Shown: piece by piece, positions 47,314 through 56,893 of the stretch
How positions within the stretch are numbered: the first letter of the stretch is position 1
How the letters are laid out: each line of letters begins with the position of its first letter
DNA from: Actinopolyspora saharensis
Lineage (GTDB): Bacteria > Actinomycetota > Actinomycetes > Mycobacteriales > Pseudonocardiaceae
DNA: 64,000 bases
NCBI RefSeq assembly: GCF_900100925.1
Contig: NZ_FNKO01000002.1
Coordinates: forward strand, 868,001 to 932,000
Direction of reading: 5' to 3'
Made by a program: the position numbers and the translations under genes
The notes under the pieces: model-generated
What the model saw: only the letters and a program-made list of their open reading frames with translations
What the model was told of the DNA's origin: nothing
Database searches by the model: none

Positions 47314-47567
47314 GGACTCCTCTCCCCGCCCCCGCTCCGGTGCGGAACGCGGTTCGCCGCGCTCGCCCGCCGCCGCGGAGCGGTTCCTCCCGAAGTCGCC
47401 GGAAGTGACCTCCGTGCGGACGTTTCGGGCGAACGCGCCGAGTGCCAACCTGAGATCGGCAGCACCGTGGTGGAACGCTACTTTGGTGATCGACATCGGT
47501 GTCCACGCGAGCGCGCCGAATCGAGGCGTGGCATCGGAACACGATCACCCGGAGGGGGACAAGTTCG

Positions 47568-47828
47568 ATGGCAGGTGTGGAAGAGGTCCGCGCCGGTATA
47601 GCACTGGCCAACCAGAAGGCCTCGGAGAGCGTGGCGGCCCTGCAGCAGGCGACCCTGAGCCTGGAGGAGGCCCAGCAGGCGCTGGCCAACGCCACGCAGG
47701 GCAGCGGGCAGGAGGAGATCCAGCACGCCTACGGGATGCTCGCCGAGGCAGCGCAGAGCCTCAACGGGGTTCAGGGCACGATCAACGCCAGCATCACCTC
47801 GGCCGAGAACTACGCGGGACGGCTGTAA
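47568..47828 (+). CDS. Small helical protein (WXG100-like size), first gene of the FtsK locus
   Basis: 86 residues from ATG 47568, preceded by GGAGGGGGAC. Predicted helical hairpin without cysteines: MAGVEEVRAGIALANQKASE, ALQQATLSLEEAQQALANAT, then a turn QGSGQEEIQ and a second helix ending ITSAENYAGRL. No WXG motif is present, but size and fold match that class. The pattern GS-x-x-E-(14 to 22 residues)-Y-A-x-L matches the N-terminal domain of the deaminase at 55695. A second small gene follows four bases on. Confidence 0.75.
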   Translation: MAGVEEVRAGIALANQKASESVAALQQATLSLEEAQQALANATQGSGQEEIQHAYGMLAEAAQSLNGVQGTINASITSAENYAGRL

Positions 47829-47832
47829 CGCG

Positions 47833-48084
47833 GTGTCGGCACTTCAGGAACTCCAGCAGGCACTGCAGACGGTCAGCGATCAGCTCGAGCAGACCCAGCG
47901 CCACCTGGCCACCTCCCGCACCGCGCTGCACCAGGCGGAATCGGCGCTGCGCGGAGTGGATCCGGACAACCCGGAGACGGTGGTCCCCCCGGGGCTGCAC
48001 CGTGCGGACGACCAGATCGAGCACACCCTGTCCACGGTGGAGCAGGTGGCCGACACGATCAGACAGTTCGCAGCCGGACTGTGA
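47833..48084 (+). CDS. Second small helical protein of the FtsK locus
   Basis: 83 residues from GTG 47833, four bases after the preceding stop. Two long helices rich in Gln/Leu/Ala (MSALQELQQALQTVSDQLEQ; LATSRTALHQAESALRGVDP) joined by a Pro/Asp turn, then STVEQVADTIRQFAAGL. Reads like an obligate partner of the 86-residue protein, as in EsxA/EsxB-type pairs, though neither carries WXG. Followed by a short hairpin at 48116. Confidence 0.7.
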   Translation: MSALQELQQALQTVSDQLEQTQRHLATSRTALHQAESALRGVDPDNPETVVPPGLHRADDQIEHTLSTVEQVADTIRQFAAGL

Positions 48085-48407
48085 CCGGGTCTCGCTCGCC
48101 TCAGCAGTCGGTGCTCGCGGGGCTTTTCCCGCGGCGCGACCGCGCCGTAACCGCCATCCCGGTCACCGACACCTGCGCGGCCTCTCCCGCGTCGCTCCCG
48201 TGAGGACGGTCCCGACGTCGTGCGGAGCACCACCCGATGTCGGGGCGCCGCCGGCGTCCCGCGCGAGTTCCCGCCGAGCGACCATCCGCGAGGGGCCGAG
48301 CGGACGACACCGGGGCACCGCTCCCGCGCTCCGGTGTCCCGTCGCGAGTAACCGGTCACACCGCCGTCCACACGGGCTGATCAGTGGTACTTTGCTTACG
48401 GTCAGTG
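48085..48407. other. Intergenic stretch between small-protein pair and ATPase gene
   Basis: 323 bases without coding signs. A GC hairpin near its start may end or weaken transcription of the first two genes; a separate promoter for the ATPase gene is expected but not identified. Confidence 0.5.
48116..48133 (+). terminator. Hairpin after the small-protein pair
   Basis: CGCGGG-GCTTTT-CCCGCG, with T bases only in the loop. Could be an attenuator. Confidence 0.4.
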
Positions 48408-51338
48408 ATGCGAGTACCGAGGTGGGGCGTGCGGAAACGCAACGAGCGGCGCAACGCGATTCAGACGGCCTTCGACCGGCTCAGCGCCACCGCGGCCACG
48501 GCCCTCGGAGCGGCCGAGAACGAGGTGGCGCGGGTCCGGTCGGATCAGGCCAAGCAGGAGCACGCGCTGCGAATCGCACAGCACGGGGTCTCCGCTGCGG
48601 CAGGGGATCCGGACTCGTTCGAGGGGTCCGAGCAACCGGAGTTCCGGACGGCGCTGGACGAGGCGCTGGCCGAACGGGCCGAGGTGTTCTCCCGGTGGAC
48701 GGCGCAGGGCCCCGAGCGGTTGACCGAGCTGATGGCCGAAGCGGCCCCCGGCACCGCCTCGGCGCCGTGGCGCGAGTGGCTGGGCAGCATCGGTTCCGCG
48801 ACCGCCCAGACCCCCGCTCCCGAGCTGTGGCGCATCGGCGCCGCACACGCCCCGGCCGCTCCCGAAGCCCCCGGCTTTCCCGCGGCGGTTCCGCTGCTCG
48901 ACGAGTCGAACCTGCGCATCACCTGCCGGTCCGCCAACGCGGAGGAAGCCACGCGGGACGCGGCCGAGCACCTCGTGCAGAACCTGCTGCTGCGCGTGCT
49001 CTCGTACTACGAGCCGGGACTGGTGCGCGTGCACGTCTGGGACACCGCACGGCTGACCGGCACCCTGCCCGGGCTGTTCCCCCTGACCCGCTCGGGTCTG
49101 CTCACGGCGCACGATCCGACGCGGCTGGACGACCTCCTCGAGGAACTGGCCGAGCACATCAGGAGGATCCACACCACCGCGCTGCTCGGCGGGCACACCT
49201 CGCTGAAGTCCCTCGTGGAGGAAACCGGCCATCGTGGCGAGCCCTGGCGGATCGCCGTGCTGTTCGGCGACGGCGAACCGCTCAAGGAGGAACAGCAGCA
49301 GCAGTTGCAGCGCGTCGCCCGCAACGGCCTGTCCTGCGGCATCCAGCTGATCGTCGTGGACCTGCCCATGACGGTGAACAACGCCCTGGAGTCGGTGACC
49401 CTGACCGGTCCGAACAGCGCGCGCAGCAGCATGACCGGCGCCCACCTGGCGATCGCTCCGGACGAGACTCCGCCGCGGGAACGCGTGAGCAGGGCGTGCT
49501 CGGCGATCTCGGAAGCGTTCCAGGCCAGGCGCTCCCGGGTGCGGACCTTCTCCGACCTGCTTCCCGAGCAGTACTGGACGAACGACTCCACCTCCGGGCT
49601 GACCGCTCCCGTGGGGTTCTTCGAGGGGGAGCCGGTGCGGATCTCGCTCGGCGACTCCAGCCCGCACACCCTGGTCGGGGGTCCCAGCGGCTCGGGCAAG
49701 ACGAACTTCCTGTACGGGATGCTGGGGGCGCTGGCCGCCCGGTACAGCCCGGACGAGCTGGAGATGTACCTGCTCGACTTCAAGGAGGGCGTGTCCTTCG
49801 CCCAGTTCACCCCGGGGAGCAGGGATCCGAGCTGGCTGCCGCACGCCAAGCTCGTGGGGGTCAACGTCAACACCGACCGCGAGTTCGGGCTGGCGCTGCT
49901 GCGCTTCCTCGCCACGGAGATGCGGCGCAGGGCCGACGCGGCCAAGGCCTGCGAGGTGACCAAGCTCGAGGAGCTGCGCCAGCGCGATCCGCAGGGGCGT
50001 TGGCCCCGGATCGTCGCCGTGATCGACGAGTTCCAGTACCTGTTCTCCGAACGCGACTCGGTGTCCACCCAGGCGGCCACGCTGCTGGAGGACGTCGCCC
50101 GCAGGGGGCGCTCCCAGGGGATCCACCTGGTGCTGGCCAGTCAGGACGTGTCCGGCATCGAGGCGTTCTGGGGCAAACCGGCCATCTTCGAGCAGTTCAT
50201 CCTGCGCATCGCCCTGCCCAAGGCCCGGCGGGTGCTGGTGGACAACAACACGACCGCGCTGGAGCTGCCGCGCTGGCACGCCGTGGTCAACCACGATTCA
50301 GGGGTCAAGCACGGCAACGAGGTGGCGCGCATCCCGGACGCCACGGCCTCGGAGACCTTCGACTCGCTGCAGACGGACCTGTGGGAGCGGCACCTGTGGG
50401 AGACGGGCAGGCGCAACGCGCGGCCTCCGCGGCTGTTCGACGGCTCGCATCTGCCCCGGCTCTCCGAGCTGGAGGACTACGAGGCGCTGCGCCCCGGTCC
50501 GGCCCGGTCCCCGCAGGTGCTGCTGGGCCAGGTGATCGACGTGCGGGGCACGGCAGCGGCACTGCCGTTCGGGCGCTCCCCCGGCCGGAACCTGGCCGTG
50601 CTCGGTTCGGCCCAGCAGGACGCCGTGGCCGTGCTGGGTGCGAGCGCGCTCTCGCTGGCCGCGCAGTTCGTGCCCGGCGACGTCGAGTTCACCATCGCGG
50701 GGCTGGTCGAGGAGAGCGCGGAGCACGCGCGTGCGCTGGAGACGACGCTGCGGCGGAACGGGCACGAGGTCTCGTTCGTCGAGACGGGGGAGTTGAACGA
50801 CACCCTGCAGCGGTTGTCCGCGCTGCTCGACGAGCGGGCCGACTCGAGCTCGAAGGGTTCCGGGGCGGCCAAGCACTGCCTGCTGCTCTACGGGGCCGAT
50901 GCCGCCCAGCCACTGCTGGAGAACAAGGACCCGCAGACGCGGCTCAGCGGGCTGGACCAGCTGCGCAAGATCCTCAAGCAGGGTCCCGAGGCGGGGGTGC
51001 ACACCATCGGTTGGTGGCGCAGCGTCCAGCGGCTGCGCAACGCGCTGGGCATGGGGCCCGCCGACGACGTGGGGGCCTGGGTCGCCTTCGACGTGCAGGG
51101 GCAGGAGCTGGCGCCGCTGGCGGCGGGGCAGTTGATCACCTGGTCCCCGCGCGCCCATCGCGGACTGTTCTTCGACCGCTCGACGCACTCGCATCCCGAG
51201 GTGGTCCTCCCGTTCGACCTGTCCGGGATGCTCGAGGAGCGGATGCCGGAGCCGGAGTTCGACGAGCAGGAGCACGTCCCGCGTCCGCGCGGTTCGGACG
51301 CTGTCGTGTCCAACGTCGGGGAGGAAACGGGTGACTGA
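48408..51338 (+). CDS. Soluble FtsK/SpoIIIE-domain ATPase with three ATPase-like modules
   Basis: About 976 residues from ATG 48408; GTG 48429 (with GAGGTGGGG before it) is an alternative. No transmembrane segment. The central module (about 395-620) is an intact FtsK/EccC motor: Walker A GGPSGSGKTNFLYGML (Lys about 431), Walker B RIVAVIDEFQYLF (Asp about 540) and a sensor stretch GRSQGIHLVLASQD. The N-terminal module (about 160-350; ending SCGIQLIVVDLPMTVNN) and the C-terminal one (about 715-930; LAVLGSAQQDAVAVLGASAL, then HCLLLYGADAAQ) look like degenerate copies. A degenerate-active-degenerate chain resembles EccC of type VII secretion, but without membrane anchor. An 8-base overlap couples it to the coiled-coil gene. 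Confidence 0.88.
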   Translation: MRVPRWGVRKRNERRNAIQTAFDRLSATAATALGAAENEVARVRSDQAKQEHALRIAQHGVSAAAGDPDSFEGSEQPEFRTALDEALAERAEVFSRWTAQGPERLTELMAEAAPGTASAPWREWLGSIGSATAQTPAPELWRIGAAHAPAAPEAPGFPAAVPLLDESNLRITCRSANAEEATRDAAEHLVQNLLLRVLSYYEPGLVRVHVWDTARLTGTLPGLFPLTRSGLLTAHDPTRLDDLLEELAEHIRRIHTTALLGGHTSLKSLVEETGHRGEPWRIAVLFGDGEPLKEEQQQQLQRVARNGLSCGIQLIVVDLPMTVNNALESVTLTGPNSARSSMTGAHLAIAPDETPPRERVSRACSAISEAFQARRSRVRTFSDLLPEQYWTNDSTSGLTAPVGFFEGEPVRISLGDSSPHTLVGGPSGSGKTNFLYGMLGALAARYSPDELEMYLLDFKEGVSFAQFTPGSRDPSWLPHAKLVGVNVNTDREFGLALLRFLATEMRRRADAAKACEVTKLEELRQRDPQGRWPRIVAVIDEFQYLFSERDSVSTQAATLLEDVARRGRSQGIHLVLASQDVSGIEAFWGKPAIFEQFILRIALPKARRVLVDNNTTALELPRWHAVVNHDSGVKHGNEVARIPDATASETFDSLQTDLWERHLWETGRRNARPPRLFDGSHLPRLSELEDYEALRPGPARSPQVLLGQVIDVRGTAAALPFGRSPGRNLAVLGSAQQDAVAVLGASALSLAAQFVPGDVEFTIAGLVEESAEHARALETTLRRNGHEVSFVETGELNDTLQRLSALLDERADSSSKGSGAAKHCLLLYGADAAQPLLENKDPQTRLSGLDQLRKILKQGPEAGVHTIGWWRSVQRLRNALGMGPADDVGAWVAFDVQGQELAPLAAGQLITWSPRAHRGLFFDRSTHSHPEVVLPFDLSGMLEERMPEPEFDEQEHVPRPRGSDAVVSNVGEETGD

Positions 51339-51762
51339 GCAGTCCGAGCAGCCCGAGCAGCCCGCGGAGCGGGCCTCCAGGGCGGCCGAGCGCTACAAGG
51401 AGATCACCGCGCTGGCCACCGAGGCGGCCGAGCGGCTGAGCGAGCGGGAGCGGCAGCGCGCCGAGCAGCTGGAGCACGAGCTGGCCACCGAACGGGACCG
51501 GGTCGAGCAGGCGCAACAGCAGCGGGACCAGGTGGACGAGGGGGTTCGGCTCCGCTGGAACGCGGCCAAGGAGGCGCTGTGGGAGGAGCGCTGGATGCAG
51601 GTGACCCAGCTCCCCCCTCCCGATCCCGCGGCCGAGCCCACCTCGGCCGAGGAGGCCATCCGCTCGGTGCAGAGCGCCTACATGGAGCTGCACGAGGCGG
51701 TCGGTCAGAAGCGCTGGTCGGGGTCGGGGCTCCTCCCCACCGGCTGGCTGGGGCGTCGCTAG
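51331..51762 (+). CDS. Coiled-coil protein coupled to the FtsK-like ATPase
   Basis: 143 residues; GTG start overlaps the ATPase stop by eight bases (GGGGAGGAAACGG upstream). Residues 5-70 form an almost continuous charged coiled coil (ERYKEITALATEAAERLSER then ERQRAEQLEHELATERDRVE); a short C-terminal domain with LRWNAAKEALWEERWMQVTQ follows. Probably a structural or adaptor subunit of the ATPase. No family recognised. Confidence 0.75.
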   Translation: MTEQSEQPEQPAERASRAAERYKEITALATEAAERLSERERQRAEQLEHELATERDRVEQAQQQRDQVDEGVRLRWNAAKEALWEERWMQVTQLPPPDPAAEPTSAEEAIRSVQSAYMELHEAVGQKRWSGSGLLPTGWLGRR

Positions 51763-55318: not shown

Positions 55319-55435
55319 GAGTCGACGCCGCGGCCCTCGGCCGCGCGCACCGCGACGCCACCGGCCCAGCCCTGCGGGAGGGCGCGGGCTGCGCGTGCGG
55401 TCCGAGTGTCGGACCGGGCTGGTAGGAGAGCGGCG

Positions 55436-55684
55436 ATGCTCGACGACATCCGGAACCGACTCCAGCAACTCACCGACACCGTCCCCGCAGGCGAGCTCCG
55501 GGAATCCTGGACCACGCTCGACGAACTGCATCGGCAGCTGCACCGAACAGCCGGAACCAGCACCAACGAGGAGGTGCACCAGGCGTTGCAGCTGTTCGGC
55601 ATCGCGGCCGAGAAAGCGGGCGAAGCAGCGCAGGCCGCAACACGGGCCGCCGAGCACACCCGACTCCGCACCACGGTCTACTAG
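55436..55684 (+). CDS. Small helical protein, first gene of a deaminase toxin cassette
   Basis: 82 residues from ATG 55436, with GGAGAG before it. Predicted helical hairpin: MLDDIRNRLQQLTDTVPAGE, a GT-rich turn, then EVHQALQLFGIAAEKAGEAA. No cysteine, no known family, but comparable in size and composition to the two small proteins near 47.6-48.1 kb. It ends 10 bases before the toxin gene. May act as a chaperone or targeting partner. Confidence 0.7.
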   Translation: MLDDIRNRLQQLTDTVPAGELRESWTTLDELHRQLHRTAGTSTNEEVHQALQLFGIAAEKAGEAAQAATRAAEHTRLRTTVY

Positions 55685-55694
55685 GGAGCCCGCC

Positions 55695-56429
55695 ATGTCC
55701 GCTGTGGAGGAACTGGGCAACACCCTCGGCGGGATGCTCGAACGAGTACCGCCCGAACAGCTCCACCAGGCCCGGGCCTGGGTCACCGAATACGCCCTGC
55801 CCACCCTGGACGAGATCGACCCGGGCAGCACCTCGCCCGAACTGGCCGAGGCAAGGGCCCTGCTCGAACACACCCGCGAACTCATCGACGACGTGCTCGC
55901 CCTGAGCGAGACCACCCGCGGGCACCTGATCAACTACCTCGCCGAACTCGGCATGCACGCCGAGCAACCCCCGCCGAGCCTGCCGCACCCCTCGACGCTC
56001 CCGCGGGTGCCCACCGACACGGCCGGAGACCGCTCCTGGATCGAGCACATCCGCGCACGACTCCCCGACCACACCGGCGGACAAACCACCGGACTCATCC
56101 ACGACCAGGACGGAAACGAACTCACCGAAACCAGCGGGCGCGAAGACATCTCCGAGCGCGCCCGACTCACCCTGCACAACTCCACCGCGTTCAGTACGGA
56201 CCATCGCGGTGCTCCCATCGTCTTTACACACGTTGAGGTGAAATACGCCCAGCGGATGAAGGAGCGCGGGCAGACGCACGGTGTGATCGTGCTGAACAAT
56301 CCGATCTGCGACATGGAGCAAGGATGCGGCGCGGCTGTGCCGGCCATCCTGCCTCGAGGGTCCGTGCTCGTCGTGTGGGAGCCCGGAGCGACGAAACCGA
56401 TCGAATTGCGAGGGAAGACTCGACCGTGA
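55695..56429 (+). CDS. SCP1.201/DddA-like cytidine deaminase toxin with N-terminal helical leader domain
   Basis: 244 residues from ATG 55695, preceded by AGGGAG. Residues 1-90 are a helical domain (SPELAEARALLEHTRELIDD, ending HLINYLAELG) like the stand-alone 86-residue protein at 47568; a Pro-rich linker (91-108) follows. Residues 115-244 are a deaminase: FTHVEVKYAQRMKERGQTHG with His179-Val-Glu181, then VIVLNNPICDMEQGCGAAVP with zinc-type Cys205 and Cys211, and ILPRGSVLVVW. These are the SCP1.201-like/DddA signatures, known for double-stranded-DNA cytosine deaminase toxins. No signal peptide. Its stop overlaps the immunity gene by four bases (GTGA). Confidence 0.88.
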   Translation: MSAVEELGNTLGGMLERVPPEQLHQARAWVTEYALPTLDEIDPGSTSPELAEARALLEHTRELIDDVLALSETTRGHLINYLAELGMHAEQPPPSLPHPSTLPRVPTDTAGDRSWIEHIRARLPDHTGGQTTGLIHDQDGNELTETSGREDISERARLTLHNSTAFSTDHRGAPIVFTHVEVKYAQRMKERGQTHGVIVLNNPICDMEQGCGAAVPAILPRGSVLVVWEPGATKPIELRGKTRP

Positions 56430-56893
56430 CCAGTATCGACACGCGTACCGTGATCACCGCGGTGTTCCATCATCTGTTCCGATACGCGTACACACCTGAC
56501 GAGACGATCGAACTGATCGAAACCGTCCTCACCGACCCGCCGAGGCCGATCTGCGAGATCTACGTGTGGGACCGTCCGTGCCGCTCGTTTCGCGACGAGG
56601 ACGGCCCCACTTTTCCGGGAAACGGGCGGGTGCGCCTCGCCTGCCCTGCTGACCAACCGTGGGTGGCGCTGAACTACGTCAGCTTCGGACAATCGGGCGG
56701 TGCGCTCGTCGACAGCTACAACCCGCACGCCACCGAGGACACACCGGCGTTGCTGTTCGATCCCGAAGGGCAGCTGTTCTTCCCCGCTTCGGCCTCGCTG
56801 CCGCTGGACCGGGCACGCGAAGCCATCGCCGAGTACTGCCGCACCGGACAGCGCCCCACCTGCGTGCAGTGGCAGCCCGGCCAGTGGTACTGA
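56426..56893 (+). CDS. Imm1-family immunity protein
   Basis: 155 residues from GTG 56426, coupled to the toxin by GTGA. Core PWVALNYVSFGQSGGALVDS then ALLFDPEGQLFFPASASLPL and DRAREAIAEYCRTGQRPTCV match the Imm1 pattern of immunity proteins that pair with nucleic-acid-deaminase toxins. Acidic overall, suiting neutralisation of the toxin. The CRISPR array begins 67 bases after its stop. Confidence 0.87.
   Translation: MTSIDTRTVITAVFHHLFRYAYTPDETIELIETVLTDPPRPICEIYVWDRPCRSFRDEDGPTFPGNGRVRLACPADQPWVALNYVSFGQSGGALVDSYNPHATEDTPALLFDPEGQLFFPASASLPLDRAREAIAEYCRTGQRPTCVQWQPGQWY

Follow-up and report, generated by a model that had tools for sequence, protein, structure and literature searches.

Results

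The window analyzed here is a 64,000-nucleotide stretch of the Actinopolyspora saharensis genome (C2:868001-932000), in which four genes on the forward strand encode two small helical proteins (small1 and small2), a soluble ATPase resembling EccC, the motor of ESX (type VII) secretion, and a coiled-coil protein. The two tiny helical proteins of 86 and 83 residues reported in an initial annotation, made from the sequence alone, were confirmed, and a single iterated profile recovered both as paralogues; its placement of the ATPase and coiled-coil genes, with the gene order and overlap, was likewise correct. Orthologues exist for all four genes, and the nearest named records for the ATPase are those of A. 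biskrensis and A. halophila (95-96%).

Table 1. Coordinates of the four-gene unit and its features in the window (aa, amino acids)
Feature	Position	Strand	Basis or detail
Ribosome-binding site of small1	47550..47559	+	GGAGGGGG ahead of ATG; read directly in sequence
small1, 86 aa, start ATG, helical hairpin	47568..47828	+	Orthologues, predicted model
small1 C-terminal tail YAGRL	47811..47825	+	[YF]xxxL at extreme end
small2, 83 aa, start GTG, small1 paralogue, tail FAAGL	47833..48084	+	Profile match
Soluble EccC-type ATPase, 976 aa, start ATG	48408..51338	+	Profile and structure matches
ATPase N-terminal helical region, residues 6-112	48423..48743	+	AF2 model
ATPase EccC DUF-like module without P-loop, residues 107-373	48726..49526	+	
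ATPase active FtsK/EccC ATPase1-type module, residues 378-660	49539..50387	+	Pfam PF01580, 84.3 bits
Walker A GGPSGSGKT, central module	49677..49703	+	Motif
Walker B IVAVIDE, central module	50010..50030	+	Motif
ATPase terminal module, EccC ATPase3-like, without P-loop, residues 674-943	50427..51236	+	
Coiled-coil protein, 143 aa, 8-nucleotide overlap with ATPase end	51331..51762	+	No transmembrane helix

Judged by sequence and model comparisons, the 976-residue protein is a predicted EccC-type motor cut down to a helical N-terminus, a DUF (domain of unknown function) module, an active ATPase1-type module, and an ATPase3-like module. Relative to the EccC plan, it has one ATPase module fewer, with three modules in place of four NTPase domains. 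Profile comparison with EccC and FtsK identified the central module as an FtsK/SpoIIIE-type motor (PF01580) of the ATPase1 type. Among 13 long EccC proteins, drawn from 16 ESX-type loci searched, its best match was ATPase1 in all 13 (43-61 bits), and scores did not exceed 31.1 bits against ATPase2 or 24.3 bits against ATPase3. A Foldseek search with the whole-length model returned T. curvata EccC first (4nh0, E 3e-30), a sequence-profile search of the PDB again placed 4nh0 first (98 bits), and module-by-module structure matches led to the EccC5 DUF (8rin) and to EccC ATPase3 (6j19, 6jd5). These matches bear out the EccC-like motor chain of the initial annotation. Its count of one intact and two degenerate motors stood in part: one module is active, but the flanking modules, neither of which has a P-loop, are DUF-like and ATPase3-like, giving the EccC plan minus one ATPase. 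As annotated, there is no transmembrane (TM) segment in the ATPase, whose Kyte-Doolittle mean peaks at 1.58 over 19 residues, nor is there one in the coiled-coil protein.

We then considered the hairpin proteins. small1 is predicted to form a two-helix hairpin (helices 4-42 and 49-85; predicted local distance difference test score, 94.8). Of its 84 homologues, 82 align across 100% of the query, and the majority consensus across lineages retains a G-S turn. A search of the genome detected no strong family member besides small1 and small2, and three further weak matches at E 0.002-0.09. The motif [YF]xxxL stands at the exact C-terminus of 81 of 97 hairpin open reading frames (ORFs), or 69 of the 84 with distinct last 30 residues; among other genes, it ends 2 of 1005 picked genes and none of the 164 under 130 amino acids. 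The spacing is the same as that of V98 and L102 in the T. curvata EsxB tail VQALLNG, residues that enter a pocket of EccC ATPase3 according to PMC6954902. Paralogous hairpins of family f3 end in VQALGN (two loci) or VQALGS (one locus), and we treat these EsxB-like tails as a possible lead to docking, not as a test of it. DUF6244 (PF19757) was matched by 8 of 43 family hairpins (best, 2.1e-27), with no match for small1 or small2 in a Pfam scan up to E 1. Two hairpins labeled Alkalihalobacillus sp. TS-13 (P0143 and P0165) are 73-79% identical to those of the window, and that record may contain contaminating actinobacterial sequence.

To examine conservation, we scored a motor as present at E 1e-60 or better, which gave 31 of 296 genomes in the class sample, 44 of 150 in the order sample, and 94 of 120 in the sample of the window's own family, where the unit is mostly single-copy. 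A hairpin profile (A3) at E 1e-6 marked 33 of the 296 class genomes, namely all 31 with a motor plus G188 and G265, the only two positives among the other 265 genomes; the rows of A3 came from 11 of the 31 motor genomes and none from the other 20, so the count is not wholly independent. The match in G188 is weak and lies inside a 498-amino-acid frame. In G265, a single gene run encodes a distant motor together with Hsp70, a pair of hairpins, a protein with five TM helices, and a protein with a weak TPR match.

Gene neighborhoods were compared across 69 motor loci (29 from the homologue search, the window, and 39 from other genomes), several of which are near-duplicates, e.g., those of Actinopolyspora and f19. 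Left out of these counts were the EccC control loci and an Arcobacter locus (L039), the latter rejected as a family member since it groups with FtsK in the tree and has no hairpin. Because gene picking missed or merged some genes, adjacency was counted from profile matches. A same-strand hairpin lies near the motor in 65 of 69 loci, with two hairpins in 32, which together with the 31 of 31 motor genomes upholds the proposal that motor and small helical partners form a conserved unit. The hairpin precedes the motor in some families and follows it in others; the motor-hairpin link therefore survives rearrangement. No hairpin lies near the motor at L082, L100, L104, or L105, and these same four loci are the only ones that lack the central P-loop pattern. 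L105 clusters with relatives that bear the P-loop (91/85) and is separated from the remaining three (100/98), and hairpin and P-loop were probably lost together twice, though the strongest branches alone also allow one loss. L082, L104, and L100 represent a third f3 paralogue type with an upstream co-directional gene run, in which some proteins have hydrophobic N-termini. A Walker B pattern was recognized in 62 of the 69 motors; of the seven others, no fewer than two (L081 and L083, with VTVVDE) were missed through limits of the pattern.

Most other lineages encode a membrane partner directly behind the motor. Beyond the main lineage of the window, 30 of 34 loci encode a downstream TM protein, a positional counterpart of the window's coiled-coil protein; within that main f1 lineage, 0 of 35 do. 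Repeating the count on the downstream frame that looked most coding left both figures unchanged. Of the four misses, L083 and L101 have no suitable ORF, the best ORF of L080 is non-coding in composition, and in L093 the motor frame is split. The annotated absence of a transmembrane segment thus holds for the motor and coiled-coil protein of the window, but it is specific to the lineage and not a general trait. Five of the 69 loci have Hsp70, recognized by motif, next to the motor (two of the five Pfam-confirmed); they comprise every examined locus of f55 (two), f57 (two), and f38 (one). Hsp70-like genes also adjoin canonical EccC genes, in the window's own genome (L112:11565-13547; PF00012, 98.7 bits) and at L145:1288-3267 (by motif).

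Deeper relatives were found on plasmids, with four tblastn records at E 1e-20 and one more when the Caballeronia motor served as query. Each of the five motors is accompanied, no more than about 2 kb away, by a hairpin gene, and in four of the five the partner is WXG100-like and contains the W. Caballeronia sp. SBC2 is the sole relative whose partner exceeds the Pfam WXG100 cut-off (30.8 of 27.3 bits); a CARF-PDDEXK nuclease gene (L151:10965-12758; PADLOC 9e-271) lies directly 3′ of its motor, followed by vWA, PP2C, and Ser/Thr kinase genes. In Rhodococcus sp. AH-ZY2, TerD is fused to the N-terminus of the motor (L152:7318-11286), the plasmid is conjugative, and the hairpin contains a W (WXG100 E 0.005). 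Somewhat under the cut-off are the partners in Helicobacter sp. NHP19-012 (24.0 bits), followed by a WHH/colicin-DNase-domain protein and a SUKH immunity gene, and in Deinococcus actinosclerus, with two WXG100-like genes, one with a W (21.6 and 23.3 bits). R. pseudokoreensis has a hairpin of the window's family (65.5 bits, tail YSSSL), an upstream Hsp70-TPR-GrpE group beside the motor, and a TM coil protein. The tree places the plasmid motors with those of the family (87/65, and 91% of 200 bootstrap trees), and all but that of R. pseudokoreensis fall outside the W-less group (96/95). As motors with WXG100-like partners thus lie outside it, hairpins without the W appear to descend from WXG100-like ancestors, a reading limited by long branches and moderate branch support. 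A mobile-element origin of the unit was rejected, with no match covering at least 80% of the query in plasmids (4 records, E 1e-20) or phages (24 records, E 1e-10).

We next compared the distribution of the motor with that of EccB. EccB is absent from 15 of the 30 motor genomes tested (the 31 of the class sample minus the window's own), including G088, G100, G111, and G132, each in 1-2 contigs; in the remaining 15, no EccB shares a contig with the motor at a distance of 100 kb or less. In family f2, 19 genomes carry EccB without a motor at the above threshold, and in the order sample, all 19 motor-bearing genomes of the window's family have EccB. The annotation had seen no EccB in the window, and both EccB genes of this genome indeed sit elsewhere (C2:2077168 and C1:716855). 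EccD, EccE, and mycosin were absent from a Pfam scan of nine neighbors, a search made without dedicated profiles for them. The two outcomes that, by the annotation, would have cost the unit its novelty thus did not occur: in the genomes that have EccB, the unit lay apart from it, and no described family scanned spans the full motor.

Constraint was estimated by dN/dS, the ratio of nonsynonymous to synonymous substitution rates (NG86). Against Actinopolyspora mortivallis, values for small1, small2, the ATPase, and the coiled-coil gene were 0.00, 0.10, 0.20, and 0.31; against L017, a more distant genus, 0.26, 0.24, 0.30, and 0.63; and against Saccharopolyspora rosea (L014), 0.23, 0.79, 0.40, and 0.62. 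Constraint looks weaker against the two more distant genera than against A. mortivallis, and by these values small2 and the coiled-coil gene are the least constrained and fastest evolving.

Related genera share neighbor genes around the unit. An Imm1 immunity-protein gene lies ~5 kb downstream in the window (56324-56893, +; PF14430, 58 bits), near a 92-amino-acid ORF (55406-55684) without a Pfam match, in a toxin search limited to the scanned neighbors. In Prauserella flavalba (L018:15015-18324, -), a dynamin-family GTPase (PF00350) and an adjacent 469-amino-acid low-complexity protein lie near the unit; the latter is reminiscent of IniB.

Discussion

We consider it probable that the unit is a stand-alone EccC/WXG100-type ATPase machine separate from ESX. 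The computed basis is a soluble DUF-ATPase1-ATPase3-like motor with one active site and a near-invariable hairpin partnership. In such a machine, the hairpins, present as a pair in the window and singly in most other lineages, would be the cognate Esx-like substrate or activator. By analogy with the EsxB tail in EccC ATPase3, the [YF]xxxL tail would dock in a pocket of the terminal module, and docking would drive the central module to assemble or to hydrolyze ATP. The motor could then move or remodel a protein client, at the membrane where there is a TM partner and in the cytosol in the window's lineage. The Hsp70 genes that adjoin the motor in four lineages, accompanied by TPR and in one case by GrpE, fit the handling of a protein client. 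Secretion is disfavored in the window's lineage because no membrane part was found at 35 of 35 main f1 loci; elsewhere it is favored by the TM partner at 30 of 34 loci, together with one relative's toxin-immunity neighbor. We suggest more tentatively a wider reading, in which the unit might belong to a further, largely cytosolic EccC/WXG100 branch that is seen in Actinomycetota and, on plasmids, in Deinococcota, Pseudomonadota, and Campylobacterota. Its soluble motor and dedicated hairpins would process their protein client independently of the ESX membrane complex, joined at some loci by Hsp70/TPR/GrpE or by vWA-kinase-phosphatase modules.

Several results weigh against a stand-alone EccC/WXG100-type machine. 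The window hairpins lack the W of WXG and fall under the WXG100 cut-offs: small1 has no match, and small2 reaches E 0.049 for PF06013 and 17.9 of 44.85 bits for TIGR03930. Across the family, just 4 of 43 hairpins reach a WXG100 E of 0.1 (best, 0.0045), and the exact tail is absent from 16 of 97 hairpin ORFs. Profile-profile alignment of hairpin with WXG100 (hhalign) gave E 4e-4 over 68 columns; a reversed control reached an equal E over 32 columns, and five column shuffles gave E 0.24-0.78. The profile comparison therefore does not support homology beyond the level of its reversed control. Foldseek with the hairpin model found nothing below E 0.001 (best, 3fav at E 0.25), though its best PDB matches include CFP10-ESAT6 and EsxGH, at E >0.1; VIA-align ranked unrelated hairpins first, with no WXG100 chain among the matches listed. 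For the motor, the DUF and terminal modules are only marginally similar to EccC in sequence, the whole-length TM-score to 4nh0 is 0.37-0.41, and the branch uniting the family is supported moderately (87/84, and 87/65 with plasmid motors). The motor tree also carries long-branch warnings, and FtsK is placed on the family's side when plasmid motors are included. Finally, no membrane component was seen at the window locus.

It is somewhat unlikely, although well short of negligible, that the motor is instead a cytosolic stress- or conflict-response ATPase, with the hairpins as adaptors, a protein or nucleic acid target, and Ter/kinase-type signaling. The lack of any membrane part in the window's main lineage would agree with this, as would the Hsp70 and GrpE partners, the TerD fusion of the Rhodococcus plasmid motor, and the vWA, PP2C, kinase, and CARF-PDDEXK genes of the Gram-negative plasmid relative from Caballeronia. 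The TM partner of most loci beyond that lineage argues the other way, and the Helicobacter arrangement of a WXG100-like gene, a nuclease-domain gene, and a SUKH immunity gene is a layout known from exported toxins.

Motors that act on DNA appear improbable. A DNA translocase whose recruitment depends on small partners, on the model of SffA and SmeA in Streptomyces (PMC4255298), would account for an FtsK-like ATPase with an adjoining small partner gene (SffA being compared by description only). However, a Pfam scan up to E 1 found no FtsK gamma DNA-reading domain, the flanking modules are EccC-like, the partner is a tailed hairpin unlike the membrane protein SmeA, and the same source reports SffA as limited to streptomycetes, Kitasatospora, and Catenulispora. 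The DNA-directed defense motor raised in the initial annotation, of the DndH/SspH/mads8 kind, fared worst, and we give it very little credence: PADLOC matches to mad8 and SspH (both 1.2e-18) stop at the motor module, the remaining three proteins match nothing in PADLOC under E 0.01, and a unit that is mostly single-copy in 94 of 120 family genomes, among shared neighbors, is unlike mobile defense genes. Hardly more plausible is a cut-down accessory of the resident ESX that docks on its membrane complex. Such a role would suit the presence of EccB in all 19 order-sample motor genomes of the window's family, whose main lineage has no membrane partner found, but not the half of the tested motor genomes without EccB or the 19 f2 genomes that have EccB yet no motor.

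If the wider, largely cytosolic reading holds, the type VII ATPase-hairpin core would exist independently of the membrane pore. The unit sets that core apart from the ESX membrane complex, including in genomes where EccB was not found, and so offers a simple system for testing the effect of hairpins on an EccC-type motor. For the uncharacterized DUF6244, it suggests a role as motor partner. The motor is further connected with Hsp70 chaperones and, in a single relative, with a toxin-immunity pair. This appears to be a widespread bacterial machine that has so far apparently gone without a name: the open-access literature searched, with subscription papers outside its scope, neither describes the unit nor mentions DUF6244.

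Among known systems, the nearest published idea that we found is in a 2016 paper on ESX evolution (PMC4791881), where WXG-FtsK clusters of Staphylococcus, Listeria, and Bacillus are treated as ESX precursors. The hairpins resemble WXG100/EsxAB proteins (PF06013) in their size, two helices, tandem paralogue pair, and C-terminal hydrophobic tail; small1 also has a G in the turn, and its model agrees with the ~100-residue two-helix hairpin of the WXG100 superfamily. They differ in the missing W and in scores below the Pfam and NCBIfam cut-offs. Part of the hairpin family, though not the window's two, shares DUF6244, a family "of unknown function." From SffA/SmeA the unit differs in that SmeA is a membrane protein. 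With EccC of T7SSa/ESX it shares the DUF-ATPase1-ATPase3-like order, an active ATPase1-type module, and small helical hairpins paired genomically, but the window motor has no TM stalk, ATPase2, or terminal P-loop, and there is no EccB at the locus. The type VII secretion systems (T7SS) T7SSa to T7SSj have a membrane-bound ATPase with four NTPase domains and, except T7SSi, a WXG100 protein, as set out by Garrett et al. 2024 (PMC11217815), whose main text does not mention Saccharopolyspora, Micromonospora, or Streptosporang-. T7SSc to T7SSj are similar in pairing an EccC-like ATPase and a hairpin with variable other parts, and T7SSc, like the Caballeronia relative, has vWA, kinase, and phosphatase genes; the difference is that their ATPases are described there as membrane-bound with four NTPase domains. 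The window unit has the EccC/EssC-type ATPase of a T7SS without its own membrane helices, four NTPase domains, WXG100, or EccB, and we therefore do not class it as one. By analogy, it would nonetheless work like the ATPase-hairpin core of a T7SS.

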